From contig JAUWOV010000023.1 in assembly GCA_030611945.1 (NCBI GenBank), positions 1 to 22,647 on the forward strand: a stretch of DNA of 22,647 nucleotides. Direction: 5' to 3'. Every line of letters starts with the position of its first letter. Within the stretch, counting starts at the first letter, position 1. The notes under the pieces are model-generated. The model saw only the letters and a program-made list of their open reading frames with translations. It was not told the origin of the DNA and ran no database searches. The position numbers and the translations under genes are program-made. Source of the DNA: a bacterium (GTDB taxonomy: Bacteria > JAHJDO01). Shown one piece after another: positions 193 through 17,843 of the stretch.

Positions 193-3100
193 GTGGGCAT
201 GGGTGGAGAAAAAAATAGTACTACTCAACAACCCAATCAAGCAGCAGCAGAATTGAATGTAACCTTACAGCAAGGATCTTTAAGAGCAAGAATAGATTTT
301 TCCGGAAATAAGAATCTGAGAGGCTACTGGGCAATCTATCCGGATTCAAAAATCGAGTATACTCTCATCTTCAGCCCGAAAAGACCTAATGATATGCTCA
401 CCGTTTTAAAACTGGGAATAGATAAAAACTACCTTAGCAAATATCATCTTTATTGTTCGGCTCTTGACAGTAAAGGTATTAGTGGCGAATCCTTTTCAAT
501 TAATAAAACCCCAAGAGTTATAGCTGGCTGGTGGAAAAACGCATTAATAAGACCTCTTAATGGTCCTTTATTAGGGGTTTATGGTTTAAGAAAAAAAATG
601 GGTATTAGCCTGATAAGAAATCCAAAGGAGGCAATTGACATAAACTGGCCTCCTCTCAGGATTACCGATTTCGGAAAGATAGTTTCCCTAGACTGTTATA
701 TGAACAGGTATAAGATGGATAAACATAACCCTGAGCTAAAACGAACCTATATCAGATTGTTTGACAACCCTTCGCAAATGGAAAAGATAGTATCCGGGGC
801 AATTAAAAAACCAAAAAGTTTTACCAGCGAAGAATATGTTTCTTTTCTTAAAGAAAGAATAACAGAAGCAAAAAAGATAATATCGATATTGCCCGAACTC
901 AAAGAATCGGGAAAAAAACTCCATGAATTAGAGAATGCGTTAGTAGAGATGGAACTTTCTCCGGATGCCCTTTTAGAAATCGAAAAGAAATTAGAAGAAG
1001 ACATTGACGGGAAGGTTCAATCAGTCAATGAAGATATCCAAACTATAAAAAGCTCTATTCAGCGATTAAAGAAAGAAAATCTCATTTACCAGCCTGTTAA
1101 GATAGATATAGATAAAGCAGAGGTTTATTTCAGAACCGCTGATTTATTTAATGGAAACGAAAGGCTGTCTTACCAATGCGAAGGCTTTAAGTTGCTTGTT
1201 CAGGCAGGAGAAAAACTAAGGGTAATAAAAAAATCCCGCATGCCAGATTCTTTGAAAGGACCAAGGGGCAAGATGGGAATAGCAGTTACATTTAGTTCCA
1301 CGCCTCTAGGGATAGTAGGGATAGATACACTTAAAGCACTAGGCATACGGTATGGCGGGAATACAAGCTTTTTTCAAGATAAATGGGTTAGGATGGGAGA
1401 GTATGATTTTAGTAATCTTGATAGCATATTCAATTATTACGATGAACACGGCCTTGAATGTATGAAGGGTTTTTACTATCAGGCATATCGTCTGCGGTCA
1501 AAATTCAAAGAAGAGTTTAAAGACGAGATAGAAGTATCACCTGTTGGAAGGAAGAAGCAGCAAAATCGTTTCATTATGGCTTCTCCGGATATGATTCCGC
1601 TTAAATGGACTGCTATGCAAAAGAAACTCATCCAGTCATTTGTCAGAAGATATAAAGACCGGAAATCCGTGCTTACCTGGGACCCGTGGGGTGAGACCTG
1701 GCTTAGACCTACCTATTATCATCCACTGATTACAAAGGCTTATCGGGAATTTCTGAAAGAAAAGTATCAGAAGATAGAAAGATTAAATAAAGTATGGTCT
1801 CAAGACCTTATGGACTATAACTACGCCGGTTTTAACGAAATTATTCCGCCAAAGGCAGAAGAGGTTCGTAAACATTCCTGGCGTATTGCTGATTGGCATC
1901 TTTTTAATACCAAAAGACTTGCCGGATATATTGCCTGGGTAACCGGCATTATAAAAGAAATAGACCCGGTTCACCCCATAAAGCTTGTAGAGACCAGCGG
2001 TATGTATCCAATTTATGGCAGGCAGCTTGATAGTTACGCTTTAGCTCATGCCGGAGCCAATTACAAAGGGGCAGGCATAGACACCTATCCCGCCAGTAAC
2101 GATAAAAAACATCCTTGGCAGGAGATAGCTGACAGAATTGATTCCAAACGCAGCGCCAATAATGACGCAGATGTCTGGGTAGGCGAGACCGGCCATTGGA
2201 ACAACATAAACATGCCGGCTACTGAGGCATGCGTCCAGCCTGAAGAAATGCGCGAGTGGGTCTATACCTGTTTTCTGCACGGGGCGAAATTTATCTCTTT
2301 TTTCCGTTGGAATGCAGGGGTAACGAAATGGAGTCTTATGGAACCAGACACTACTCCAACGGAGAATGCTATAGCCATAGGTCTTGTAAATTGTGAAGCA
2401 AACAATCTTAAACCTCTCTGGTCAGCAAAGCCAAAGAGAGAAGTTGCTCTTTATTATCCAAGGCTCTCCGCCCTGCATGGCAAATCAAACGGGGGAGAAA
2501 TGAGAGGTCTGCATAAGATACTGATTGAACTTGGCTTTGGAGTAGACCCGATTGATTCGGAGATATTAAAGAAGAGATTGAATCAATATAAACTGCTTGT
2601 TCTCCCGCCGTCTCCATATATGTATGATGACGTGGAGAAAGAGATAATGGATTTTGTGAAGAAAGGCGGTGTAATAATATGCAATTCCAAGACAGCAACT
2701 GGAATTTATAACAGGATAGGTGAACTAGAAAAATCTCCAGATGGATTGGCAAAACTGCTTTCTCAAGGGATGAAACTAAATGACCCTGTCTATAGCGGGA
2801 ATGTGGATAGTATTTCCAAACTGGGTAAAGGGAATATTGTTGTGATAGCCAAAGATATTGGCAAAAGATACAGGGATAGAAAGGACATAGAACAGATACG
2901 AACAGGAATACTTAAGGTACTGACAGAGAACAGTATCTATCCTGCTGCCAGTCCGGATAAAGGAGAAATTGAATCGGCTGTGCTCTCAAATGGCAAGAGC
3001 AAGTATCTCCTGATCATAAATCACCAGCATAAAGAGGTGTCGTGTAAGGTTACCATTTATGACTCTGTAGCTAAGAATTTCGGGGATTCGCACAAAGTTA

Positions 3101-3216
3101 TTCATGACATCTACACACTGAAACCGGCAATGATAAGAAAAGAAGACTCTCTCTGGAAATTATCCACAGAATTAGAACCGATGGGAGTACAGATTTATGC
3201 ATTTACTGAAAAATAA
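193..3216 (+). CDS. GH42-like (beta-galactosidase A4 type) glycoside hydrolase
   Basis: This 1007-residue protein probably hydrolyses terminal beta-galactoside-like bonds. After an N-terminal beta-rich part comes a charged helical, coiled-coil-like stretch (about 215-310). A TIM barrel starts near 360. Barrel motifs fit GH42: DPWGETW puts the likely acid/base at Glu501, and VGETGHW puts the likely nucleophile at Glu665. Their spacing of 164 is close to that of GH42 enzymes. A Rossmann-like segment from about 748 resembles the GH42 trimerisation domain, followed by a small C-terminal beta domain. The start is uncertain: GTG 193 lacks a good Shine-Dalgarno, and ATG 199 has a weak AGG 8 nt upstream. 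No signal peptide is visible, so the enzyme appears cytosolic unless the true N-terminus is missing. Its end overlaps the next gene by 20 nt. Family assignment is fairly sure; the substrate is not known. Confidence 0.75.
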   Translation: MGMGGEKNSTTQQPNQAAAELNVTLQQGSLRARIDFSGNKNLRGYWAIYPDSKIEYTLIFSPKRPNDMLTVLKLGIDKNYLSKYHLYCSALDSKGISGESFSINKTPRVIAGWWKNALIRPLNGPLLGVYGLRKKMGISLIRNPKEAIDINWPPLRITDFGKIVSLDCYMNRYKMDKHNPELKRTYIRLFDNPSQMEKIVSGAIKKPKSFTSEEYVSFLKERITEAKKIISILPELKESGKKLHELENALVEMELSPDALLEIEKKLEEDIDGKVQSVNEDIQTIKSSIQRLKKENLIYQPVKIDIDKAEVYFRTADLFNGNERLSYQCEGFKLLVQAGEKLRVIKKSRMPDSLKGPRGKMGIAVTFSSTPLGIVGIDTLKALGIRYGGNTSFFQDKWVRMGEYDFSNLDSIFNYYDEHGLECMKGFYYQAYRLRSKFKEEFKDEIEVSPVGRKKQQNRFIMASPDMIPLKWTAMQKKLIQSFVRRYKDRKSVLTWDPWGETWLRPTYYHPLITKAYREFLKEKYQKIERLNKVWSQDLMDYNYAGFNEIIPPKAEEVRKHSWRIADWHLFNTKRLAGYIAWVTGIIKEIDPVHPIKLVETSGMYPIYGRQLDSYALAHAGANYKGAGIDTYPASNDKKHPWQEIADRIDSKRSANNDADVWVGETGHWNNINMPATEACVQPEEMREWVYTCFLHGAKFISFFRWNAGVTKWSLMEPDTTPTENAIAIGLVNCEANNLKPLWSAKPKREVALYYPRLSALHGKSNGGEMRGLHKILIELGFGVDPIDSEILKKRLNQYKLLVLPPSPYMYDDVEKEIMDFVKKGGVIICNSKTATGIYNRIGELEKSPDGLAKLLSQGMKLNDPVYSGNVDSISKLGKGNIVVIAKDIGKRYRDRKDIEQIRTGILKVLTENSIYPAASPDKGEIESAVLSNGKSKYLLIINHQHKEVSCKVTIYDSVAKNFGDSHKVIHDIYTLKPAMIRKEDSLWKLSTELEPMGVQIYAFTEK

Positions 3217-4318
3217 GACCGCAATACGTGGTTATTTATCTGCTTTATTGTGTGGAATATGCTTATTGGTATATTCCTGTTTATCTTCTGCTGAAATACC
3301 TGATTGGTGGGATCCTAATGGCTGGGGCAATTCTCCTGACTGGCACTATCGAGTTCCGATAACTATTACAAAGGATAAAGGGTGTGAGGAGACTGATTAT
3401 TCAAATACTCTGGTTGAAACATCAATAGATTTTAAGGAATGGCTCTCCTGTCCGAACATAGACGCGGAGAGTCTGCGTATTGTTGATGAGAACGGAAAAG
3501 AGATTCCATGTCAGAGTGGTAGTTGGGCGGATAGTAACTATGAGACATACAATGTAAGCTGTAATCTTTCTTTTATAGTTCCAGCCGATAATCTCAAGAA
3601 AGAGAAATCAGCGAGGTATTTCCTGTATTTTGACACCTTTGGCAATGAAGAAAAAACATCTGCGGATTATATTACAGATCTGAAGATAAGTAAAAACAGT
3701 GTGGAAAACAGTATTTATAAAGTGTGTCTGGATCCTAAGCAGGAGATACTGATAATCGGTCTGACTGATAAGGAATCGGGCAAGGAGCTATTATCTGGAG
3801 AGAAATATATATCAAGGGAAAAAATTCGATTACTTTCCGCGGGTTTTGTTTTTGTCTCCCCTGTAAAAGCAGTTTACAAGAGAAGTTATTCCAGGAACGA
3901 GTTTAAGATTATTGAAGAGTATACTTTTTATCATCAGGCATCCTTTTTTCAGGTTAAACACCAGGTTATACCTTTAGATTCCCAAAAGAAAATCTCTAAA
4001 ATCTTACCGCGTATCATGCTTTGCGGATTTTCTGACACACCTGCTTCTGCAACAGCAGATAGCAACTGGTGGCAGGGAGTATATGGACAAGGGATGCGTG
4101 TCGGGTTCTTTGGTATAGATGGTAAAGCACAGTTGCATACTAACCTGCGAAAGGGCACAAAGGTGGAAGTTGGCTTTAACAATAAGACAGAACAGAATAA
4201 GACTTTTGAATCTATTGTCTGTATTTCACTGAAAAGAGAGACAGGAATTAATCTTCGGAAGAAATACGTAAATCCATTGAAGATAATGTTTGAGGAGTTT
4301 AAAATTCATAATGATTAA
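3197..4318 (+). CDS. Exported DUF2341-like beta-sandwich protein
   Basis: This 373-residue protein is the only product of the catabolic cluster with a clear export signal. It has a basic start (KNK...R), a hydrophobic core at about 13-29, and a likely signal peptidase I site after Ser-Ser-Ala32. A Cys at 28 could make it a lipoprotein, but the surrounding residues fit a lipobox poorly. The mature start (DWWDP...W.YR.PITI) and the later pattern of residue-rich strands (ESLRIVDENGKEI, ARYFLYFDT) resemble DUF2341-type beta-sandwich domains found next to carbohydrate-active proteins. No catalytic motif was recognised. ATG 3197 is supported by GGGAG at 3183-3187, inside the end of the glycosidase gene, so the two are translationally coupled. 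The last codons lie in a 31-bp direct repeat shared with the end of sulfatase 1. It may bind or process glycans outside the cytoplasm, which is only inference. Confidence 0.6.
   Translation: MHLLKNKTAIRGYLSALLCGICLLVYSCLSSAEIPDWWDPNGWGNSPDWHYRVPITITKDKGCEETDYSNTLVETSIDFKEWLSCPNIDAESLRIVDENGKEIPCQSGSWADSNYETYNVSCNLSFIVPADNLKKEKSARYFLYFDTFGNEEKTSADYITDLKISKNSVENSIYKVCLDPKQEILIIGLTDKESGKELLSGEKYISREKIRLLSAGFVFVSPVKAVYKRSYSRNEFKIIEEYTFYHQASFFQVKHQVIPLDSQKKISKILPRIMLCGFSDTPASATADSNWWQGVYGQGMRVGFFGIDGKAQLHTNLRKGTKVEVGFNNKTEQNKTFESIVCISLKRETGINLRKKYVNPLKIMFEEFKIHND
4284..4314 (+). repeat. 31-bp direct repeat, left copy
   Basis: This segment matches 9251-9281 at 29 of 31 bases, with the last 21 bases identical. 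The copies lie in different reading frames relative to the genes they end, so shared protein sequence does not explain the match. This copy spans the last codons of the exported protein gene and includes GGAG followed by an ATG at 4311 that opens a frame of only five codons. Confidence 0.85.
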
Positions 4319-4349
4319 CCAGTTTTAAAATAAAGAAAGGAGTATTAAA

Positions 4350-5549
4350 ATGGGTAAATTAGCAATTAATGGTGGAATCCCTGTAAGGGAAAAGGAATGG
4401 CCAAAATGGCCGGTGGTTGGCGAAAGAGAAGTTGATTTGATTACCGAAGTAACTAAAAGCGGCAACTGGTCTTTCGCCGGACCGAAGGAGTTGGAATTTG
4501 CCAAAAAATTTGCTTCTTACTGTGGGGTAAAGTACGGAGAATGTATAGGCAATGGTACGGAGACCCTTGAAATTGCGTTAAAGGCACTGGGAATTTTACC
4601 CGGAGATGAGGTAATAGTTCCTGCTCTTACCTGGATAGCTACCGCCAGCTCTGTGTTAATGGTGAATGCAGTTCCTGTTTTTGTTGATATTGATCCTGAC
4701 ACGTATTGTATTGATCCTGACAAAGTTAAGGAGGCTATTACAGAAAAAACAAAAGCGATTATTCCTGTTCATTTATTTGGCTGCATGGCGGATATGGACA
4801 GGATAATGGAGATTGCGAAAAAACATAATCTCGCTGTTATTGAAGACTGCGCTCATACTCACGGTTCAATCTGGAAAGATAAAAAAGCCGGTTCTATTGG
4901 GAACATCGGTTCTTTTAGTTTTCAGCAAAGCAAGGTGATGACTTCAGGTGAAGGCGGAATAGTTGTTACGGATGATGAGGAACTTGCAGAGAGATGTTTT
5001 TCTTATAAAAACTGTGGCAGAATAAGGAAAGAGACCTCTCAAAATGTATTAGGATGGAATTACAGAATGACTGAATTCCAAGCCGCCATTCTTCTCGCTC
5101 AGTTGGAGAGATTTGATGAGATAAATGCAAGAAAAACAGAAAACGCCAAATACCTATCCCAAAAATTGTCACAGATAGAAGGCATTGAGCCTATGAAAAA
5201 TGATCCGAGAGTTACGCGGCAAACATATTACTGTTATATTTGCCGATATGATTCATCTCAATTTAAAGATGTTTCAATACGACGGATCAGAGAAGCGCTG
5301 ACAAAAGAGGGTATTCTCCATTGGGGGCTTTACGGGCCGGTTTATAAAAGCCCTCTTTGGGCGGTTAATGAAAAAGAATTCCCTTTTGTCAACATAGACT
5401 ACAACAAAACACGTTGTCCTGTGGCTGATGCATCAGACGAAAAAACTCTCTCATTCCCTCACTATGTGTTAGGGGGAACAAAAAAGGATATGGATGATAT
5501 TGTGGAAGCGATAGTAAAGGTGAAAAAAAATATTGAAGAGTTGCTATAA
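4350..5549 (+). CDS. DegT/DnrJ/EryC1/StrS family PLP aminotransferase
   Basis: This 399-residue enzyme should transfer an amino group, usually from Glu or Gln, to a keto-sugar or cyclitol ketone using pyridoxal phosphate. The N-terminus (KLAINGG.PVR) is typical of the branch that holds AHBA synthases and inosose aminotransferases. The PLP-stacking region EDCAHTHGS and the segment FSFQQSK, where Lys195 is the expected Schiff-base lysine, are followed by SGEGG. The glycine-rich GNGTETLEIAL phosphate-binding stretch is intact, and length is normal for the family. AAGGAG at 4337-4342 sits 7 nt before the ATG. In a catabolic cluster it could act in either direction on an amino sugar or aminocyclitol, so the substrate is open. 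It is the first gene after the left copy of the 31-bp repeat. Confidence 0.9.
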   Translation: MGKLAINGGIPVREKEWPKWPVVGEREVDLITEVTKSGNWSFAGPKELEFAKKFASYCGVKYGECIGNGTETLEIALKALGILPGDEVIVPALTWIATASSVLMVNAVPVFVDIDPDTYCIDPDKVKEAITEKTKAIIPVHLFGCMADMDRIMEIAKKHNLAVIEDCAHTHGSIWKDKKAGSIGNIGSFSFQQSKVMTSGEGGIVVTDDEELAERCFSYKNCGRIRKETSQNVLGWNYRMTEFQAAILLAQLERFDEINARKTENAKYLSQKLSQIEGIEPMKNDPRVTRQTYYCYICRYDSSQFKDVSIRRIREALTKEGILHWGLYGPVYKSPLWAVNEKEFPFVNIDYNKTRCPVADASDEKTLSFPHYVLGGTKKDMDDIVEAIVKVKKNIEELL

Positions 5550-5634
5550 AACTATGCTCAAAATTTTCTACAGATACAAGCATCCTGAGTCTGTAAACAT
5601 ATAAATACTTTTTAAATTTTAGGAGGCAATAAAT

Positions 5635-6549
5635 ATGAATATTGAAGAAAAAATCGGAAGTTCGTCAATCGTGTTTCATCAACGACCGGAATTGCCTATT
5701 ATAGATGCAATAAGATTGTGTAAGGACGCCGGATTTAAGGCAATGGAAATTCACCTTGATGACTGGAATGGTGTATTTGGAGATCCTTCTTTAATAAAAT
5801 TTCCAGGAGTATGGCCTAGAACATGCAGTAAAGAAGAAAGAGAAGCTCTAAGAGAAGAACTGGCGGATTTTTCAACAATAATTGTGCACGGAACGCCATG
5901 GGATGTTAAAATTGCCTCGCGAAACCCCGGAATAAGAGAAGAATCTGTGAAGCAATATATGGAAGCTATAGAATTTGCCCATGATATTGGAGCTGGCATA
6001 GTCACCTTTCATATTAATGGAGCAACAAATCCTTTAGAGGAATATTGTGAAACAATGGAAAGAATAGTTGATTTTGGAAAGAGGGCAGTTGAGTATGCTC
6101 AGAAGTATGAAATAATACTTGGAGCAGAAACGGGAACAGGACTTGTGGCGCCCGGAGCCACTCCTATTGAGAAATGGCATAATGTGCTGAACGGTATTGG
6201 AAGTGAAAGCTTTGGCATGTTATTGGATATAGGACATGTATTAGTTGAGATGGGATATAGAGCGGGAACAGAGGCGGTATTGACTTATATTAACGAATTT
6301 TCTGATAAGATTGTAGAAGTACATGCGCATAATGTAATTGCCTGGACTGCGGTTAGCCAGATATTAATAGATCACCAACCATTCTTTGGCGATACAGTAT
6401 GTATTGATGTGGAGAAAGTTTTCAGAAAACTTCGGGAAGTGGGTTATAATGGTCCAATAATTTTCGAAATTGTGGGAGCAACAAAGGAAAAAATACTGAA
6501 AGAATGCCAGTTAGCCAAGCAAAAAATAATAGAAATATGGAATGAATAA
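5635..6549 (+). CDS. Sugar phosphate isomerase/epimerase (AP endonuclease 2-like TIM barrel)
   Basis: This 304-residue single-domain TIM barrel belongs to the xylose isomerase-like superfamily, whose members isomerise or epimerise sugars and keto-cyclitols with a divalent metal. The expected metal-site residues are present in order: Glu165 in GAETGTG, Asp198 and His201 in LLDIGH, His230/His232 in EVHAHN, and Glu278 in IIFEI. No signal peptide is seen, so it acts in the cytosol. A strong AGGAGG at 5621-5626, 8 nt before the ATG, fixes the start and suggests high translation. The 85-nt gap before it is the widest in the cluster but shows no clear promoter or terminator. Its stop is 2 nt from the next start. 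The exact sugar cannot be read from the sequence. Confidence 0.85.
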   Translation: MNIEEKIGSSSIVFHQRPELPIIDAIRLCKDAGFKAMEIHLDDWNGVFGDPSLIKFPGVWPRTCSKEEREALREELADFSTIIVHGTPWDVKIASRNPGIREESVKQYMEAIEFAHDIGAGIVTFHINGATNPLEEYCETMERIVDFGKRAVEYAQKYEIILGAETGTGLVAPGATPIEKWHNVLNGIGSESFGMLLDIGHVLVEMGYRAGTEAVLTYINEFSDKIVEVHAHNVIAWTAVSQILIDHQPFFGDTVCIDVEKVFRKLREVGYNGPIIFEIVGATKEKILKECQLAKQKIIEIWNE

Positions 6550-6551
6550 AA

Positions 6552-7814
6552 ATGTTTAAAATAGGAATGTCTAAAGTTAACATAACTCCCCCAATAGGGG
6601 TAGAATTATGGGGTTATGGTTTTTATTTGAATAGAAAATCAAAAGGCGTGCATGACGACCTTTATTGTAAAGTGGTAGTTTTAGATGATAGCAAAAATAA
6701 AATAGTTCTTATTAATAATGAATTAGGTGGTATAAGCAAAGAGATTGCCGAGAAAACCAGAAATCTGGTCCAAAACGAAATGGATATACCCAAGGATAGT
6801 ATTATTATCACTTGCACGCACACCCACTCCGGACCAGCAGTTACTTTTCTCAGAGGGTGGGGCGAAATAGACAAGGACTATGTAAAGATGTTGCCTAAGT
6901 ATATGGCTGGTGCGGTAATTACAGCATTGAATGATATGAAAGATGCAAAGATTGGCTTCGGAAAAGGCAAAGTAAAAAATATTGCTTATAATAGGGAAAA
7001 TGAAGAAGGTCCAGTTGATAATGAAGTGGGAGTAGTAAGAATAGATGATACTCAGAATAACACTTTATGTATTCTTTCCAATTTCAGCTGTCATCCTGTA
7101 GTATTGAGGGAAGATAATTTTCTTATCTCTTCGGATTTCACGGGTCACGCCATGCGAATGGTGGAAAAAGAGACCGGAGGCGCGGGAATCTTTTTACAGG
7201 GTGCTTGCGGAGACATTGACCCTATCAGACCTACTCAATCTTTTGAAATAATGGAGAAATATGGGAGTATGTTAGCTGAAGAAGTTATTAAAGTATCTTC
7301 TCAAATAAAGACCACTGAAAAAGCAGATATGAAGATTACCTCCAGAACAATAAAAGTTCCTTTAGAACTTTACAAAAAAGAAGAATTAGAAAAAGCACTT
7401 AAAGAAAATCAGAATAAACTAAAGAAAAAAGAAGGAGATGAGAATAGTTTAAAATGGGCTTATTTTAATGTTGATTGGGCAGAAGATATGCTTAAAAAAC
7501 TTGAGAATAATCCGGCAAAAGAAAGAGAGGTAGAGATGCAGATTTTATTTATCAATGATGCTGTTCTGGTATTTACCCCCGGAGAGGTATTTACTGAATT
7601 CGGTTTAAGAATTAAAAAAGAATTTCCTTTTCTATATACTTTTGTAGCCTGTTACGCCAATAATTATATTGGCTATATACCAACTAAAGAAGAGTTTGAA
7701 AAAGGTAGTTATGCCGCAAAGTTAGTTCCTAAGATGTGCGGAAATTTTTCCTTTACTCCTGACGTAGGAGAAGTGTTGGTAGAGAATATATTAAAGTTAA
7801 TTAAAGTGAGGTGA
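6552..7814 (+). CDS. Short neutral/alkaline ceramidase-like metallohydrolase
   Basis: This 420-residue protein matches the N-terminal catalytic domain of neutral ceramidases, Zn-dependent amidases that cleave the N-acyl bond of ceramide. Motifs seen are the N-terminal G.SKVNITPP, CTHTHSGPA (His90/His92, likely zinc ligands), NFSCHP (His181), SSDFTGHA, and the glycine loop QGACGDIDP. It is much shorter than classical ceramidases (about 650-780 residues) and lacks their C-terminal immunoglobulin-like domain and signal peptide. Short cytosolic homologues are common beside sugar-catabolic genes in PVC-like bacteria, and the real substrate may be an N-acylated sugar rather than a lipid (inference). 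Its start is 2 nt after the isomerase stop without a clear Shine-Dalgarno, so coupling is likely. A charged Lys/Glu-rich helix lies at about 280-320. Sulfatase 1 follows 3 nt downstream. Confidence 0.8.
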   Translation: MFKIGMSKVNITPPIGVELWGYGFYLNRKSKGVHDDLYCKVVVLDDSKNKIVLINNELGGISKEIAEKTRNLVQNEMDIPKDSIIITCTHTHSGPAVTFLRGWGEIDKDYVKMLPKYMAGAVITALNDMKDAKIGFGKGKVKNIAYNRENEEGPVDNEVGVVRIDDTQNNTLCILSNFSCHPVVLREDNFLISSDFTGHAMRMVEKETGGAGIFLQGACGDIDPIRPTQSFEIMEKYGSMLAEEVIKVSSQIKTTEKADMKITSRTIKVPLELYKKEELEKALKENQNKLKKKEGDENSLKWAYFNVDWAEDMLKKLENNPAKEREVEMQILFINDAVLVFTPGEVFTEFGLRIKKEFPFLYTFVACYANNYIGYIPTKEEFEKGSYAAKLVPKMCGNFSFTPDVGEVLVENILKLIKVR

Positions 7815-7817
7815 ATT

Positions 7818-9269
7818 ATGTCTAAACGAAAACCGAATATCTTGTTCTTGCTTACTGATCAGCACAGAACCGACGCAATTGGGGCATATGGTGCGCAGGT
7901 CTGCAAAACGCCGAATATTGACAAGTTAGCTTCCGAGGGGGTAACCTTTGACAAAGCCTATACTGCCTGTCCCGTGTGTTCCCCAACACGGGCGAGCATA
8001 TTAACCGGTCAGTATCCGCATACTCATGGAATGACGATCAATATTGAGAATAAAGCTTGCGGAATACCGGAAATTCCGAACGATTCGGGCTTGCTGAGTG
8101 CCCGTTTGCGCGAGGCGGGCTATCAGTTGGGGTATGCCGGCAAGTGGCATCTCGGCGACGAACGGCTTCCGCGTCATCTCGGTTTCCATGGCGACAATTT
8201 TCCGGGGCACGGAGATGGCGGCTTTAAGTTTTCGGAATATAAGGAGTATCTTGCGCTTAATGGTTTTGAGCACGCATTTATTGAAGGCCCGTTTCGGTCC
8301 ACTCAGCGCCATGGAACGCTCTCTGGACCAGAGGAGTCAACTGTTCCATATTTTCTCGCCGAAAACACCATTTCTCTTCTGAAACAGTTTGCTTCGGACT
8401 GCAGGGGAAAACCACAGCCATTTTTTATGTGGACGAATTTCTGGGGACCGCATGCGCCGTACTACGCACCAAAGAATTATGTTGACATGTATCGCAACGA
8501 GGACATACCTCCCTGGTCCAACTATGATGATCCGTGCGTGAACAAGCCGCGCATACATCGCGACAAGGTGCCTGTTGAAGCTCGTGAAAAAGGATGGGAC
8601 TTTTGGCGAGAGAGTCTGGTTCACTACTATGCGTTCACTACGCTAATTGACGCTCAGATCGGACGGATACTTACCGAACTTGATAAACTTGGTTTGGTCG
8701 ATGACACACTGGTAATTTTTTCGGCCGACCATGGAGAATCACTTGGCATGCATGGTGGAATGATGGACAAGGCACATTCCATGTATGAAGAGACAACGCA
8801 TATTCCTTTCATTATACGGGCTCCATTCATGAAATCTACCGAACAGGGTACCCGCGAAGACGCGTTTATCTCACTCGTGGATTTTGCTCCCACTTGTTCA
8901 GAGTTTGCCGGGCTTTCGGTTCCTTCCTCCATGCAGGGAATGAGCGTGCTCCCCTTGCTTGAAAGTGACTCAAGAAAGGGCTGGCGCGACACACTCGTCG
9001 CGGAATGTCACGGGCTCGCCGGCGCACTTTTTGCTCAACGCATGGTGCGGCGCGGGAGCGAGAAATATGTTTATAACTGCGGGGACGTGGACGAATACTA
9101 TGACCTGGCAAACGACCCATATGAGCTAAACAACCGCATAGACGATTCCGACTGCGCGAAAAAAATTCGCGAGATGCGGGAAATTCTGCTTGACTGGATG
9201 GATCAAACAGGGGATGACATCAAGTATTATCTAACAAATCGAATGGGCTGTAATGTTGGGGGAGTTTAA
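7818..9269 (+). CDS. Sulfatase 1 (type I, formylglycine-dependent, cytosolic)
   Basis: This 483-residue arylsulfatase-superfamily enzyme hydrolyses sulfate esters. It opens with KPNILFLLTDQHR, where Asp14 is a calcium ligand. The active-site motif VCSPTRASILTG has Cys54 as the residue to be converted to formylglycine and Arg58 as its partner. SADHGESLGMHG (Asp304, His305) completes the metal site. There is no signal peptide. GAGGTG at 7808-7813, overlapping the ceramidase stop, is the Shine-Dalgarno. Base composition stands out: the 60-base lines counted run at about 47-68% G+C (9001-9060 has 41 of 60), while a line from the preceding gene (7621-7680) has 17 of 60. That suggests recent acquisition. 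Its last codons (CNVGGV) fall inside the right copy of the 31-bp repeat. Sulfatase identity is secure; the sulfated substrate is unknown. Confidence 0.93.
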   Translation: MSKRKPNILFLLTDQHRTDAIGAYGAQVCKTPNIDKLASEGVTFDKAYTACPVCSPTRASILTGQYPHTHGMTINIENKACGIPEIPNDSGLLSARLREAGYQLGYAGKWHLGDERLPRHLGFHGDNFPGHGDGGFKFSEYKEYLALNGFEHAFIEGPFRSTQRHGTLSGPEESTVPYFLAENTISLLKQFASDCRGKPQPFFMWTNFWGPHAPYYAPKNYVDMYRNEDIPPWSNYDDPCVNKPRIHRDKVPVEAREKGWDFWRESLVHYYAFTTLIDAQIGRILTELDKLGLVDDTLVIFSADHGESLGMHGGMMDKAHSMYEETTHIPFIIRAPFMKSTEQGTREDAFISLVDFAPTCSEFAGLSVPSSMQGMSVLPLLESDSRKGWRDTLVAECHGLAGALFAQRMVRRGSEKYVYNCGDVDEYYDLANDPYELNNRIDDSDCAKKIREMREILLDWMDQTGDDIKYYLTNRMGCNVGGV

Positions 9270-9281
9270 AATTCATAATGA
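9251..9281 (+). repeat. 31-bp direct repeat, right copy
   Basis: This copy matches 4284-4314 at 29 of 31 bases. Here it encodes the end of sulfatase 1, provides the GGGGGAG Shine-Dalgarno, and supplies the ATG (9278) of the TIM/PHP fusion gene. The two copies are 4967 bp apart and enclose exactly four genes: aminotransferase, isomerase, ceramidase-like enzyme and sulfatase 1. Confidence 0.85.
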
Positions 9282-12049
9282 ATAATTGTATTGTTTGCGC
9301 GCAGGCTAATTTCAATAATGGGTTAAGCTTTCAGAAGCTTGATAATCTCAGGGATTCAAAAATTAACAAAATTGAGATATCCTGTGGTGCTGCTCCTGGA
9401 AAAGGACACGTTAGTATCCATAATCCTGACAAACATATAATAAACTTCAGTAAGCAGGTTGCTGATAAAGGTTATGCGGTTGATGTTTTGCATATAGATG
9501 ATGAGATTTTCAGCAGTGATAGTGCTGAAAGGATTATTGCAGATGGTAAAAACAGCCTTTTGCTGTTGGATAAGGTAATAAGTTTTGCCAAACTTCTCAA
9601 TGCCCCGGTTATAAGATGGAGGAGCGCGTTATTGGAAAAAACTCTGCTTACAAGCCAGTTGCGGAAAAGCCTGATTGCTTTTTTCATGGAACTTGGCAGG
9701 CATAGCCGGGAGAAGGGAATAGATTTCGGGCTGGAGCCTCCGGACGGGTGTTTGCTGGAAATTAATGAAACAATGGAATTTTTTTCGGAAATAGGAAACC
9801 AGTCCATAGGTTTTTGTTTTAATCCTGCCAAGTTTTTGTTTTCCGGTGTAGGAAGCGAAAGGAAGATGGTTAGAAAGTATGATGATCATTTGAACAGGGA
9901 CGGAATACGGCGATGGTATACTGAAGATGATCTAAAAAAAATTAACGGCATGAATGACATTGACCGCACACCACTACGCAAAATCATAAAATGTTTCTAT
10001 CTGGTTAATTACAAAAAAAACGGAAACTTATACACACCATGCAATATCTGGGAAGGGATAATAGATAACCTGTTGCTAATGGGCCAGCTTTGTACCCATA
10101 ATGGTCGGCTGCCTGCCAATAATCATATCATAATTGATGACCCTGGTCTGGCGCGATGTTATAAAACCGGTCATCTGGAGTTCGGGGCAAAATGTTTTCT
10201 TGATAAAGTCATTGAAAAGGTAAATTCAAAATATGATTTGAATTATGACTTGAGTTCTATGACTGATCTTTGCGCGAAAATAGAACCATGTACGGCTATT
10301 TCATGGCAAATGGAGACATTAAAGATTAAGATGACAGTGGGGGAAAGCAGTATCAGTCCTGGGGGAATGGTTAAAATCCAGTTCCGTAAAAGGGCGCGGG
10401 GAGGAAATCCGCAGATTGCCGATCCTGCCGGTAACGGATATGTTACGGCTGTTGCCTCGCGCAAAGAGACTTGTATTGAAAGATTTGTCTCCCCCAGCCC
10501 CCAGCCGACTATTTTATTGCAGATAAATAATGCCGAACTGGTAAAGGGTAATGAAATAGAGGTCATTATCGGAGATAAAAAATATGGCGGTAAAGGCATT
10601 CAAATGGAACCATTCCCCTTAACACAGCAGATAACAGTCGCTGTAGACAATAATGGAACAGGGCGTTTCCTGCTTATTGAGAAACTTCCTGTTTTGAAAA
10701 CGGTTGGCGGTAAAGCGGAAAAAATCTGCGTGTTATGTCCTTCAACTGTTAAGACGGGGGAACCTTTTAACGTAGGGACTATTGCCGAGGACAGCCGCGG
10801 ATATCCCGCGCATGAATATCAAGGTATAATTAAATTAGAAGATCAGGACGGCTTGGATATTGTTGATCAAAGTGGATCGCCCACAAACCGTCAATTTGAC
10901 AATCAAAATTTCAAGTCAGTTATTAATCGTGAGGGTATTTATTATTTGTCAGTAAAGGATGATGATTCAGGTTTGAACGGTATTAGCAATCCGATAATCT
11001 GTTCTGAAAATGTTGATAATAATATTTTCTGGGGCGACATTCATGCGCACTCCACTATTTCCGATGGCGCCAATTCCATAGATTTTCTATATGAATATGC
11101 CAGATATAGTGCCAAACTTGATTTCGCGGCAGCGGCTGATCACGGAAGTCTGTTTAATAATTCCGCGTGGGAAGAGACAAAAAAGACCATAAACAAATAC
11201 CATGAAAACGGCAAGTTTGCAGCTCTGTTAGGCTCTGAATATAATCCAAAAGATGGTCACAAAAATATCTGTTTCAGCAACCTGGATGTACCGTCTTTGG
11301 AAATAGAGAAAGCAGGGCAAATAGAGAACGTATGGGAACATCTTAAGCAGCACAAAGGCCTTCTTATTCATCATCAAATGGCTACTGTTCCCAAATCTTT
11401 GGTTGATTGGGATCATTGCAATCCAAAGGTAGAAAGACTGATGGAAATAGTTTCATGTCATGGGAATAATGAGAACAAAAGGACTACGTCAAAACTATAT
11501 TCTGTTAACGAAGGACATTATGTTCAGGATGCTTTAGCCAGAGGATATAGATTTGGGTTTTGCGCATCATCGGATACGCATGACAGTCATTGCGGATACA
11601 CTCCTTATGGAAAATACAAATATTCTCCACTGGTAGCGGTTTTTGCCAAAACACTTGATCGAGATTCAATATTTGATGCATTATGGAATAGAAGATGTTA
11701 CGCCACAACAGGCGCAAGGATAATACTTAATTTTAAACTAAACGGACATCTTATGGGGGAAGAGATAAAAATAAACGAAAAAATATATATAAGAAATATA
11801 GAGATAAAGGTGATAGGTACTGAGAAAATTGAGCAAATAGATATCATAAGAAATAATAATGATATATATTCCCATAAAGGCAAGTCGGATATGGAAGAAA
11901 TTAAATGGCGGGACAAGGATAATATTGATACAATTTCGTTTTTTGATAAAAACCGAAATGCACCATTTGTCTTTTATTACATTCGGGTAACTCAATCAGA
12001 TGGCGAAATGGCATGGAGCAGTCCGATATGGATATCTCCGGCAGTGTAA
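9278..12049 (+). CDS. Fusion of a TIM-barrel sugar isomerase-like domain and a PHP-like DUF3604 domain
   Basis: This 923-residue protein joins two enzyme-like modules. Residues 1 to about 320 look like a xylose isomerase-type barrel: Glu153 in GLEPPDG stands at a metal position, but the usual Asp-Pro-Ala motif reads FNPAKF with Asn182, so the metal site may be altered. A beta-rich linker covers about 345-580. From about 583 comes a DUF3604/PHP-type metallohydrolase: WGDIHAHS (Asp587, His589, His591), AADHGS (Asp621, His622), LIHHQ, and SSDTHDSH (Asp766, His768, His771). PHP-type sites hold two or three metals and hydrolyse phosphate or related esters. There is no signal peptide. The start is fixed by GGGGGAG overlapping the sulfatase 1 stop. 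It lies between sulfatase genes, so a role in breaking down a sulfated or phosphorylated sugar is plausible but unproven. Confidence 0.8.
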   Translation: MNNCIVCAQANFNNGLSFQKLDNLRDSKINKIEISCGAAPGKGHVSIHNPDKHIINFSKQVADKGYAVDVLHIDDEIFSSDSAERIIADGKNSLLLLDKVISFAKLLNAPVIRWRSALLEKTLLTSQLRKSLIAFFMELGRHSREKGIDFGLEPPDGCLLEINETMEFFSEIGNQSIGFCFNPAKFLFSGVGSERKMVRKYDDHLNRDGIRRWYTEDDLKKINGMNDIDRTPLRKIIKCFYLVNYKKNGNLYTPCNIWEGIIDNLLLMGQLCTHNGRLPANNHIIIDDPGLARCYKTGHLEFGAKCFLDKVIEKVNSKYDLNYDLSSMTDLCAKIEPCTAISWQMETLKIKMTVGESSISPGGMVKIQFRKRARGGNPQIADPAGNGYVTAVASRKETCIERFVSPSPQPTILLQINNAELVKGNEIEVIIGDKKYGGKGIQMEPFPLTQQITVAVDNNGTGRFLLIEKLPVLKTVGGKAEKICVLCPSTVKTGEPFNVGTIAEDSRGYPAHEYQGIIKLEDQDGLDIVDQSGSPTNRQFDNQNFKSVINREGIYYLSVKDDDSGLNGISNPIICSENVDNNIFWGDIHAHSTISDGANSIDFLYEYARYSAKLDFAAAADHGSLFNNSAWEETKKTINKYHENGKFAALLGSEYNPKDGHKNICFSNLDVPSLEIEKAGQIENVWEHLKQHKGLLIHHQMATVPKSLVDWDHCNPKVERLMEIVSCHGNNENKRTTSKLYSVNEGHYVQDALARGYRFGFCASSDTHDSHCGYTPYGKYKYSPLVAVFAKTLDRDSIFDALWNRRCYATTGARIILNFKLNGHLMGEEIKINEKIYIRNIEIKVIGTEKIEQIDIIRNNNDIYSHKGKSDMEEIKWRDKDNIDTISFFDKNRNAPFVFYYIRVTQSDGEMAWSSPIWISPAV

Positions 12050-12070
12050 TGGTTAAAATTATAAAAATGC

Positions 12071-12076
12071 AAGGAG
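12071..12076 (+). promoter_or_regulatory. Shine-Dalgarno that decides the sulfatase 2 start
   Basis: AAGGAG lies 1 nt before an ATG at 12078 and 10 nt before an in-frame ATG at 12087. Only the second spacing allows normal ribosome positioning, and starting there leaves the N-terminus MQKKKPNF, which matches the other two sulfatases. Confidence 0.7.
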
Positions 12077-12086
12077 TATGTTAATT

Positions 12087-13451
12087 ATGCAAAAGAAAAA
12101 ACCTAATTTTATATTTATATTTGTGGATGATCTTGGGTGGGGGGATTTGGGCTGCTATGGTAATCCCATAGTAAAAACACCGAATTTAGATAAAATGGCT
12201 TGTAACGGCATCCGCTTTACCCAAAGTTATGTGAATGCGCCAATGTGTTCTCCTTCGCGGGCAGCTATAATCACCGGGCATTTTCCTTCAAGACATGGAA
12301 TTCATTACTGGATGGACAGAAAACATAACGCAAAAATAGGCATGCCGGAATATCTGGATCCTGAAGTATATACTTTGCCGAAACTCCTTCAACAATCCGG
12401 TTATGCTACAGCCCATTTCGGGAAATGGCATATTGGAGAAGGTCCTGATGCTCCACAGGTCGCTGACTACGGTTTTGACGAAACACGGATCATCTGTCAA
12501 GGCAATGGTCCCGGCTACGGTGTTCCGGCGAATCACCATCAGGGGACAGAGATGATTGTTGATTCCGCCATTGATTTTATTGGCCGGAACAAAGACAAAC
12601 CGTTTTTCGTCAATGTTTGGCCGCGAGACGTACACGCTGCCTTGGATCCTTCTCTTGACGCCTTATCACGATACAGTCATTTAGCTTCTGAAGGTAAATA
12701 CAAAACAGCAATGCAGGTTTACTATGCGGCAATTACTGAAATGGACAGGCAGATAGGCCGTCTTTTAGATTATCTTGATTCGGAAAAACTTGATGAAGAT
12801 ACCATTGTAATCTTTTCCAGTGATAATGGCCCGGAAGAATATTTTGTTGTACACGCAAATCATCATAATGCGGGCAGCACAGGAGCATTCAGAGGACGAA
12901 AAATGAGCCTGTACGAAGGAGGTATTCGCATGCCCTTTATACTACAGTGGAAAAATCACACCCCTGTAAATAAAATTGATAATAAGAGTGTTATCAGCGG
13001 CATAGATTTACTCCCCACATTTTGTCATCTTGCAAATGTTCCCTTGCCGGAAGATTACCATCCTGACGGTGAAAATATCACAGATTGTTTTTTGGGAAAG
13101 AATTTCACGAGAAGCAAGGAACTGTATTGGGAGTGGCGTGTTGAGCGTGAACTTACCACGAGTCCAAGCGCGCATGTAAGTCCCCGTATTGCTATACGTG
13201 ATAAAGAGTACAAATTATTATTTAATCCGGATAACAGCAGAACTGAATTATATAATATTCCCGAACAGCCAATGGAGCTGCATAGTATTGCTGAAAAGCA
13301 TCTGGAAATAGTGGAAAACATGAAACAAAAAGCCTTGAAATGGGCAAAAACCCTTCCTGATATACCTATTGCCGACAACTCTGGAACAGCGCCTGTTATG
13401 TGGCCATTAAAAATTGATCCCTCTGAACTTGCTGACCCGGATTTTGATTAA
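12087..13451 (+). CDS. Sulfatase 2 (type I, formylglycine-dependent, cytosolic)
   Basis: This 454-residue sulfatase carries PNFIFIFVDDLGWGDLGCYG at the N-terminus (paired Asp metal ligands). The motif MCSPSRAAIITG has Cys54 as the formylglycine precursor and Arg58 as its partner. SSDNGPEEY forms the second metal-binding strand, and the later GAFRGRKMSLYEGGIRMPF is the classic C-terminal sulfatase signature. Asp-Asn in place of the Asp-His seen in sulfatases 1 and 3 places it in the arylsulfatase A-like branch, so it likely acts on a different sulfate position or sugar. No signal peptide is present. I place the start at 12087 rather than the in-frame ATG at 12078 because of the Shine-Dalgarno spacing. 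The gap to the previous stop is 37 nt. Confidence 0.92.
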   Translation: MQKKKPNFIFIFVDDLGWGDLGCYGNPIVKTPNLDKMACNGIRFTQSYVNAPMCSPSRAAIITGHFPSRHGIHYWMDRKHNAKIGMPEYLDPEVYTLPKLLQQSGYATAHFGKWHIGEGPDAPQVADYGFDETRIICQGNGPGYGVPANHHQGTEMIVDSAIDFIGRNKDKPFFVNVWPRDVHAALDPSLDALSRYSHLASEGKYKTAMQVYYAAITEMDRQIGRLLDYLDSEKLDEDTIVIFSSDNGPEEYFVVHANHHNAGSTGAFRGRKMSLYEGGIRMPFILQWKNHTPVNKIDNKSVISGIDLLPTFCHLANVPLPEDYHPDGENITDCFLGKNFTRSKELYWEWRVERELTTSPSAHVSPRIAIRDKEYKLLFNPDNSRTELYNIPEQPMELHSIAEKHLEIVENMKQKALKWAKTLPDIPIADNSGTAPVMWPLKIDPSELADPDFD

Positions 13452-13501
13452 AAAGACAGTTCTCGAGAAATCCACGCAGGTGGAAAATATAGGAGATTGC
13501 A

Positions 13502-15013
13502 ATGAATAAAAAACCAAATATCTTACTGATTACAAGTGATCAGCAGCATTGGAATACACTTGGCATAACCAATAAGGAAATCAAAACGCCAAATCTTGAC
13601 CGACTCGCAAAGCAGGGAACTGTCTTTACCCGCGCTTATTGTCCGAATCCAACCTGTACACCGACGCGCGCATCCATTATAACAGGCAAATATCCCAGTC
13701 AGCATGGCGCATGGTCATTAGGTACCAAGCTTCCGGAGAACGAACATACAGCAGGGGTGATTTTTGGAAATAACGGATATAAAACAGCCTTGGTCGGCAA
13801 GGCGCATTTCCAGCCAACTAAAAGCACTGAAGAGTTCTCGTCTCTTGAATCAATGCCTATATTGCAGGATCTGGAATTCTGGAAAAAATTTAAAGGACCA
13901 TTCTATGGTTTTGACCATGTTGAATTGGCAAGAAATCACACAGATGAAGCGCATATCGGTCAGCATTATGCGATCTGGATGAAAGAAAAAGGATGTAAGA
14001 ACTGGCGTGACTACTTCTGTAAACCCACTGGAAACAGCGAGAAACAATTACATAAATGGAATATACCTGAGAAATATCATTACGATACCTGGATTGCAGA
14101 ACGTACTAATTCTCTTATGGAAGAATACAATAATAACGAAGAATCTTTCTTTCTCTGGGCAAGCTTTTTAGACCCTCATCCTTCTTATCTTGTTCCTGAA
14201 CCATGGGATACAATGTATGACCCTGAAAAGATAACTGTTCCTACAATTACCAAAGGAGAGCATGACAATAATCCGCCGCACTTTAAATTAACTCAGCAGA
14301 AAAATCCTGATTTTTCTCCATGGCAGGAGCCTGATGGTAATAGCTGTCATGGTTTCCACTCACACATCCATGACAAAAAGAATTTAGCCAAAAACATAGC
14401 AGTTTATTACGGCATGGTCAGTCTTATGGATAAATATATAGGCAGGATTCTGGATAAGCTGGAAGAATTGGGATTAGCGGAAAACACACTCGTTGTTTTC
14501 ACTACAGACCACGGGCATTTTTACGGTCAGCATGGTCTGATTGCCAAGGGACCTTTTCATTATGAAGACATGATCAAACTTCCATTTATTACACGTTTCC
14601 CGGGAAGAGTTCCTGCTGGTAAACAGTCCGATTCGTTACAGTCGCTTGTTGATCTTGCCCCAACATTTTTGAGCGCAGCTGGAATTGATATCCCCAGGGG
14701 AATGGCAGGTATAAACCAAAGAGATGTCTGGTTTGGGAAAAAGGAAGGGATCAGAGAGCATGTTATTGTTGAAAACAGACATCAACCAACAACCATTCAT
14801 GTAAAAACATATGTTGATAAAAGATATAAGATTACAGTGTATTACAATCAGAAATATGGAGAATTGTTTGATCTTGGAAAAGACCCTCAGGAAATCAATA
14901 ATCTATGGAATAAGAAAGAATATTCTGAACTCAAAGCAAAACTAATAATGAAATTACTTTTTGCGGAAATGGGCAAGGAACCCTTATGGATGCCTAGAAT
15001 TGCAGGGGCCTAA
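13502..15013 (+). CDS. Sulfatase 3 (type I, formylglycine-dependent, cytosolic)
   Basis: This 503-residue sulfatase opens with KPNILLITSDQQHWNTLG and carries TCTPTRASIITGKYPSQHG, with Cys52 as the formylglycine precursor and Arg56 as its partner. TTDHGHFYGQHG supplies the Asp-His metal pair, and the tail shows the usual ELFDLGKDPQEINNLW pattern. It resembles sulfatase 1 more than sulfatase 2 in its Ser/Thr-Asp-Gln opening and Asp-His-Gly motif, but its sequence and composition (lower G+C) differ, so it is not a recent copy. AGGAG at 13491-13495 lies 6 nt before the ATG. It has no signal peptide. It is the last gene of the catabolic cluster; no hairpin terminator was found in the 65 nt that follow. 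Confidence 0.93.
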   Translation: MNKKPNILLITSDQQHWNTLGITNKEIKTPNLDRLAKQGTVFTRAYCPNPTCTPTRASIITGKYPSQHGAWSLGTKLPENEHTAGVIFGNNGYKTALVGKAHFQPTKSTEEFSSLESMPILQDLEFWKKFKGPFYGFDHVELARNHTDEAHIGQHYAIWMKEKGCKNWRDYFCKPTGNSEKQLHKWNIPEKYHYDTWIAERTNSLMEEYNNNEESFFLWASFLDPHPSYLVPEPWDTMYDPEKITVPTITKGEHDNNPPHFKLTQQKNPDFSPWQEPDGNSCHGFHSHIHDKKNLAKNIAVYYGMVSLMDKYIGRILDKLEELGLAENTLVVFTTDHGHFYGQHGLIAKGPFHYEDMIKLPFITRFPGRVPAGKQSDSLQSLVDLAPTFLSAAGIDIPRGMAGINQRDVWFGKKEGIREHVIVENRHQPTTIHVKTYVDKRYKITVYYNQKYGELFDLGKDPQEINNLWNKKEYSELKAKLIMKLLFAEMGKEPLWMPRIAGA

Positions 15014-15042
15014 TAAGAGAAAGGCAAGCGAGGTTGATACGT

Positions 15043-17301: not shown

Positions 17302-17571
17302 GTGAAATTCAATTGGAGTCCAGAAAAAAACAAATGGCTGGCGGAAAACCGTAGCATTACATTTGAGGAAATAATTTATCTTATAGACGAAGGATATTTG
17401 CGTGCGATTCTAAAGCACCCGAAGAAAGCAAATCAAAAAATATTTGTGGTTGAACGCGAAGGGTATGCATTTAATGTGCCCTCTGTGGAAGAACATGATG
17501 GAACATGTTTTTTAAAAACAATATATCCAAGTCGTTCATCAACCAAAAAACATATTGGAGGCAAAAAATGA
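17302..17571 (+). CDS. brnT: BrnT-like toxin of a type II toxin-antitoxin pair
   Basis: This 89-residue protein fits the BrnT family (RelE-like fold, RNase toxins). It has the N-terminal MKFNWSPEKN, the helix containing ITFEEIIYLIDEG, a basic HPKKANQKIFVVE strand, and the C-terminal FLKTIYPSR segment that carries family-typical basic residues. The GTG start is chosen because family members begin M-K-F-x-W and because it matches the predicted transcript start. It is followed by the antitoxin gene with an ATGA overlap, the normal BrnTA order (toxin first). Members of the family cut mRNA and slow growth under stress; that activity is assumed here from homology. Confidence 0.75.
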   Translation: MKFNWSPEKNKWLAENRSITFEEIIYLIDEGYLRAILKHPKKANQKIFVVEREGYAFNVPSVEEHDGTCFLKTIYPSRSSTKKHIGGKK

Positions 17572-17843
17572 AAAAGCTACTGCTCACTAAAGAAGAAGCG
17601 GCGTTGGAAAAGGAAATCGAAAATGGCGAATGGGTTGCCGTTCCCGATATGACAAAAGAAATAAAAAAATATCAAACTCATGCCCGTAATGCTTTGAATA
17701 AGATCAAAAAGATCAATATCCGCATGTCCGATTGGGACTATAACAATATAAAGCTGCGGGCTGTTCAGGAAGGACTGCCTTATCAAACATTAGTTTCAAG
17801 CATAATTCACAAATATTTAACGGGACAAATAAAAGCCGGTTAA
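17568..17843 (+). CDS. CopG/RHH-like antitoxin paired with the BrnT-like toxin
   Basis: This 91-residue protein starts MKKLLLTKEEAALEKEIENG, then an acidic/aromatic toxin-binding type stretch (GEWVAVPDM...YQTHARNAL). It ends in a ribbon-helix-helix-like unit: the strand INIRMSDWD, a helix through LRAVQEG, LPYQTL, and a second helix SSIIHKYLTG. This layout matches BrnA/COG5304-type antitoxins that neutralise BrnT toxins and bind their own promoter. I use the ATG at 17568, overlapping the toxin stop, rather than the upstream in-frame ATG at 17505, because the intervening 21 codons only retrace the toxin gene and the family begins at the MKK position. The stop is 13 nt before the radical SAM gene. 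Confidence 0.75.
   Translation: MKKLLLTKEEAALEKEIENGEWVAVPDMTKEIKKYQTHARNALNKIKKINIRMSDWDYNNIKLRAVQEGLPYQTLVSSIIHKYLTGQIKAG

Follow-up and report, generated by a model that had tools for sequence, protein, structure and literature searches.

The DNA analysed here (the window, a single stretch of 22,647 nucleotides) contains a gene island in which two copies of a short direct repeat bracket a block of four genes. The genes and features discussed below are as follows; all those with an orientation lie on the forward (+) strand.

193 to 3216, + strand: GH42-type glycosidase (Pfam PF02449), left flank of the island
3197 to 4318, + strand: exported-protein gene, with a signal peptide-like N-terminus and no family at the gathering score
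4284 to 4318, + strand: left copy of the repeat, made up of the terminal codons and stop codon with which the exported-protein gene ends (MFEEFKIHND-stop)
4350 to 5549, + strand: DegT/DnrJ/EryC1 aminotransferase, block gene 1, GC3 0.36 (flank-like)
5635 to 6549, + strand: xylose-isomerase-like TIM barrel (isomerase), block gene 2, GC3 0.29
6552 to 7814, + strand: neutral/alkaline ceramidase N-terminal-domain protein (ceramidase), block gene 3, GC3 0.30
7818 to 9269, + strand: sulfatase 1, block gene 4, a compositional outlier (GC 0.50, GC3 0.52)
9251 to 9285, + strand: right copy of the repeat, matching the left copy at 32 of 35 bases and reading MLGEFKIHNE-stop in the exported frame
9278 to 12049, + strand: TIM-barrel plus CehA/McbA (DUF3604, PHP-type) metallohydrolase gene (TIM/PHP gene)
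12078 to 15013, + strand: sulfatases 2 and 3, right flank of the island
15038 to 15041, no strand: right edge of the island, where DNA identity with all four genus relatives starts, just past sulfatase 3

As the preliminary description had reported, positions 4284-4314 and 9251-9281 agree at 29 of 31 bases, the last 21 being identical. The match can be extended to 32 of 35 bases (4284-4318 against 9251-9285), which takes in the stop codon of the exported-protein gene; the repeat as a whole represents the 3' end of that gene (MFEEFKIHND-stop in the left copy, MLGEFKIHNE-stop in the right). At the right copy this frame serves no gene; it is an isolated scrap, with sulfatase 1 on one side and the TIM/PHP gene on the other. 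Read in another frame, the DNA of this copy provides the last codons and the stop of sulfatase 1, and the TIM/PHP gene has its start region there too. The tail of sulfatase 1 that the repeat encodes begins at about the residue at which homologues of this protein end. Exactly four open reading frames lie between the copies, the fourth terminating within the right copy. The two copies stand in different frames relative to the genes that each one ends, and the ATG at 4311 in the left copy opens only the five codons MINQF before a stop; the repeat is copied DNA rather than a protein motif, again as originally proposed. Because the copies differ at three positions in 35 bp (3/35; 95% CI 2-23%), the event that formed the repeat was apparently not recent. 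As a separate observation, the TIM barrel encoded at 9278-12049 is fused to the CehA/McbA metallohydrolase.

The pair is the only one of its kind in the 1.66-Mb draft genome, and it is not a chance match in the statistical sense. A BLAST search of the whole genome gave E = 1.6e-7 for the right copy against the left; no other site in the whole genome matched the 21-mer at up to three mismatches, and no exact match to the 21-mer was found elsewhere in 84,980 species genomes or in IMG/VR. None of 400 Markov-simulated windows contained an exact repeat of 21 bases or more (the longest was 20). The 31-mer is not scattered over the genome at places unconnected with module boundaries; such scatter would have spoken against the original proposal. 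As to the background of looser pairs, about ten loci with pairs matching at 29 or more of 31 bases within 12 kb, this one counted, were present in 760 kb of stretches sampled from the same genome, most of them paralogues (paralogous genes) and dispersed repeats, so that finding one such pair within 22 kb is nothing unusual in this genome. Dispersed repeats of 31-37 bp, of the AGGCACATCGTCCAGAGGACGACCAGCC and TCCCCCTTTGAAGGGGGATTCAGGGGGATGTAA types, were also seen at L053:480, 11848 and 14792 and at L126:2373 and 10778.

The AT-rich core, TTTAAAATTCATAAT, is weak evidence by itself, since it recurs as a 15-16-mer at unrelated places in the genus and in the same genome, and words of this type are several-fold more frequent than the Markov expectation. 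The specific part is GGAG plus eight of ten matching bases farther upstream (P about 6e-4 for 8/10), and it is this extension through GGAG and the preceding bases that makes the pair convincing, given that the core recurs elsewhere in the genus. The same recurrence and the same excess of core words would be expected if the two copies had arisen by convergence, being AT-rich words of the TTTAAAATTCATAAT type common at gene edges in the genus and lying beside a Shine-Dalgarno-like GGAG. However, the identity of 21 exact bases, and of 32 of 35, crosses bases that are not AT-rich, and neither the 400 simulated windows nor any other genome site within three mismatches provided an equivalent; we therefore consider convergence improbable.

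An assembly artefact, in which the contig wrongly joins two places that have a 21-mer in common, is more improbable still. The draft is fragmented (119 contigs) with 3% contamination, a step in GC content is located at the right copy, and 21 bases, the length of the exact match, is a common smallest k-mer in assembly. Against this, the homology continues past 21 bases into imperfect matches, the island genes are all co-directional and closely spaced, and at its left edge sulfatase 1 is closely linked to the ceramidase gene.

The preliminary description had treated the four genes as one inserted cassette, and base composition does not bear out such a unit. The flanking island genes have a GC content of 0.38-0.42 and a uniform GC3 on both sides (0.36-0.38). 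Relative to these flanks, the GC3 z-scores are -0.4 for the aminotransferase, -2.9 for the isomerase, -2.9 for the ceramidase and +6.4 for sulfatase 1. The block is therefore mixed: sulfatase 1 is clearly distinct, and alone clearly foreign-looking (50% GC against 38-42%), the isomerase and ceramidase are weakly distinct, and the aminotransferase is not distinct at all. Nothing shows that the four genes moved as one unit. Codon-usage z-scores were also tried as a means of separating the first three genes from the flanks, and they proved too noisy, as the native gene group compared with the right flank likewise gave a z of 3.6.

The best high-GC segment has its left edge at 7820-7893 and its right edge at 9060-9266, reaching the right copy, and the compositional edges of sulfatase 1 coincide with its open reading frame. 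At the left edge the junction reads TGA-ATT-ATG, with a Shine-Dalgarno-like GAGG inside the end of the ceramidase gene. In one rival explanation, sulfatase 1 alone would have been imported into an operon already carrying the aminotransferase, isomerase and ceramidase genes, and the right copy would be ectopic repair filler derived from the end of the exported-protein gene. That sulfatase 1 is the sole strong compositional outlier, with edges matching its open reading frame, argues for this explanation, as does the occurrence of an aminotransferase-isomerase neighbourhood without the repeat in the relative G004. However, it is ad hoc to suppose that templated filler came from at least 3.5 kb away and landed precisely in front of the start of a gene, and no matching scar is found at the left edge of sulfatase 1. 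We regard import of this gene alone as rather unlikely.

No recombinase or integrase was found in or beside the block among the window genes scanned with Pfam (dnaG and the radical-SAM gene were identified by orthology or NCBIfam, and one small open reading frame had no assignment). The block contains no transposase, and no inverted repeats pair its ends. There is no tRNA gene in the window, and the gene whose end contains the repeat is an orphan accessory gene, not a conserved target. An attC site of an integron cassette was considered and rejected: neither copy folds better than its shuffled versions (z from -0.7 to +0.5), and there was no Rfam match. No third copy of the core, as an excised-circle or deletion junction would provide, is present in the assembly, which has two copies only. 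With no recombinase, no structured ends, no third core copy and three differences in 35 bp, nothing points to present-day mobility of the block. Deletion between the copies is possible in principle but should be very rare. It is hardly credible that a four-gene sulfatase cassette without a recombinase is still excising and integrating through a 21-35-bp gene-end repeat by means of host functions, in the manner of the E. coli H47 island.

Within this set of genomes, the whole of 193-15013 is confined to the one species. All four genus relatives lack the island, although they share TauE-kdtA-radical SAM-rpoD (KdtA identity 83-88%), and dnaG is also common to those with contigs long enough. The absence of the block from the relatives is consequently uninformative on the block itself and, since the whole island is missing from all four, none of them can show an "empty site". 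On the left, the contig begins in the end of a multi-copy element (1-140), of which at least seven other contigs of the genome have copies, 98-100% identical, at their own ends. The GH42 gene starts 52 bp after it, so that the island is cut on this side by a repeat, probably an insertion sequence end. Beyond the island, a small open reading frame at 17505-17843 is shared with G001 and G004 at 94.6% identity but went unmatched in the stretches compared from G002 and G003; it is weakly BrnA antitoxin-like, below the cut-off.

At the corresponding position, the relatives carry varied genes. Directly adjacent to TauE are a mannitol-dehydrogenase-like gene in G001 and a DeoR regulator in G003; in G002 the place is taken by a different sulfatase together with a SPASM radical-SAM protein and a GDSL protein, and the contig of G004 terminates there. 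In the genome studied here, the DeoR/MtlD genes are on contig C12, where they adjoin further sulfatase, arylsulfotransferase-like and SPASM genes that form a second set. From these arrangements, the interval between TauE and DeoR appears to be a preferred site for the acquisition of sulfatase genes. The second set includes a broken copy of sulfatase 3 (L094:11569-12503, 89% DNA identity, frame broken), in which about 554 bp are missing between two GCAGGAT repeats, and which adjoins the DeoR/MtlD genes, the neighbours of TauE in relatives. This deletion shows that rearrangement at short repeats occurs in this genome.

Most probably among the explanations considered, but still tentatively, a single illegitimate recombination long ago left the repeat as its scar, within an island that is species-specific and a mosaic of sulfatase and glycan genes; insertion of a block is the favoured route. 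The starting state would have been an operon of GH42, exported-protein, TIM/PHP, sulfatase 2 and sulfatase 3 genes. A DNA block ending in sulfatase 1 would then have entered at the exported-TIM/PHP junction, and its integration, by short homology or in an additive (single-crossover-like) manner, would have duplicated about 35 bp of this junction. The left copy would have retained the end of the exported-protein gene, and the right copy the TIM/PHP start, lending sulfatase 1 its stop. We infer the ancestral junction, the direction of insertion and any joint arrival of all four genes, and the route also presumes a putative donor with a 35-bp anchor.

Insertion is favoured because the repeat stands on both sides of the block, the flanking genes are intact when joined, and GC3 is the same in both flanks. 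Joining the flanks in silico within the core yields an intact 373-aa exported protein ending in FEEFKIHNE and an intact 923-aa TIM/PHP protein, the stop of the first gene overlapping the start of the second. The idea that the two genes once adjoined, put forward in the preliminary description, is thus coherent, but a genome with this junction was found neither in the genus nor among 384 other genomes, which counts against insertion. Relatives were searched for the two genes joined without the cassette; none was found, and no relative has both flanking genes together. In the genus the exported protein was without a match, and of 384 other genomes 7 gave partial matches only; the TIM half of the TIM/PHP gene matched nothing in these 384. 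Also weighing against insertion are the mixed composition of the block, whose aminotransferase is flank-like, so that arrival as a single unit is not demonstrated, and the length of the repeat, as 31-35 bp is near or below the lengths required for efficient homologous recombination. The four-gene order itself was not found elsewhere, so distant relatives do not show it conserved without the repeat: with the isomerase as bait, 60 pattern matches were obtained in species genomes, none from a relative. In G004 an aminotransferase, a second aminotransferase and an isomerase are consecutive, without the repeat, and a ceramidase-aminotransferase pair, distant, occurs in three relatives.

A close rival of the insertion reading, though in itself of limited probability, involves no inserted block: a second exported-type gene between sulfatase 1 and the TIM/PHP gene would have been deleted except for its last 35 bp, and the deletion would have fused the end of sulfatase 1 to this remnant. 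In favour of this, the right copy corresponds precisely to the 3' terminus of a gene, stop codon included, and a similar short-repeat deletion of a duplicated gene is found in the same genome (the 89% identical sulfatase 3 copy on C12); the repeat copies (3/35, 2-23%) have diverged about as much as those paralogues. However, the genome retains no second gene of the exported type, and an extra duplication step is required. The evidence does not separate insertion with duplication from loss of such a gene; each of the two is more likely than convergence, misassembly or the import of sulfatase 1 by itself.

The locus offers one readable junction in a piecewise-assembled gene cluster, from a lineage of which few relatives have been sequenced. 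Discovery of the ancestral junction would give a date and an orientation to one stage in the build-up of a sulfatase operon; the scar leaves the understanding of how such islands form unchanged.

Several known systems can be compared with this arrangement. Integrase-dependent genomic islands likewise have direct repeats (attL/attR) at both ends of a block; here, in contrast, there is no integrase, tRNA target or structured site, and the repeat lies within coding ends. The E. coli H47 genomic island excises via direct repeats without a recombinase of its own (PMC5426353), and the two cases are alike in having a gene block between imperfect direct repeats with no recombinase encoded. However, H47 has extensive repeats with four homology regions and its excision was detected by PCR, whereas here there is one 21-bp core and a block of mixed composition, read from an assembly only. 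Single-crossover integrations that duplicate a homologous anchor (additive), and homology-facilitated illegitimate recombination, have been documented (PMC3240628); in these, too, foreign DNA is joined at a short chromosomal anchor, which the additive form duplicates, although the duplications described were of 109-950 bp and recent, as compared with 35 bp with three differences and a putative donor here. Illegitimate recombination has moreover been proposed to be one of the main origins of small variable segments in the genomes of bacteria (PMC2884548). By analogy, the repeat and its four-gene block appear to fit these already known kinds of event, illegitimate recombination and additive integration.
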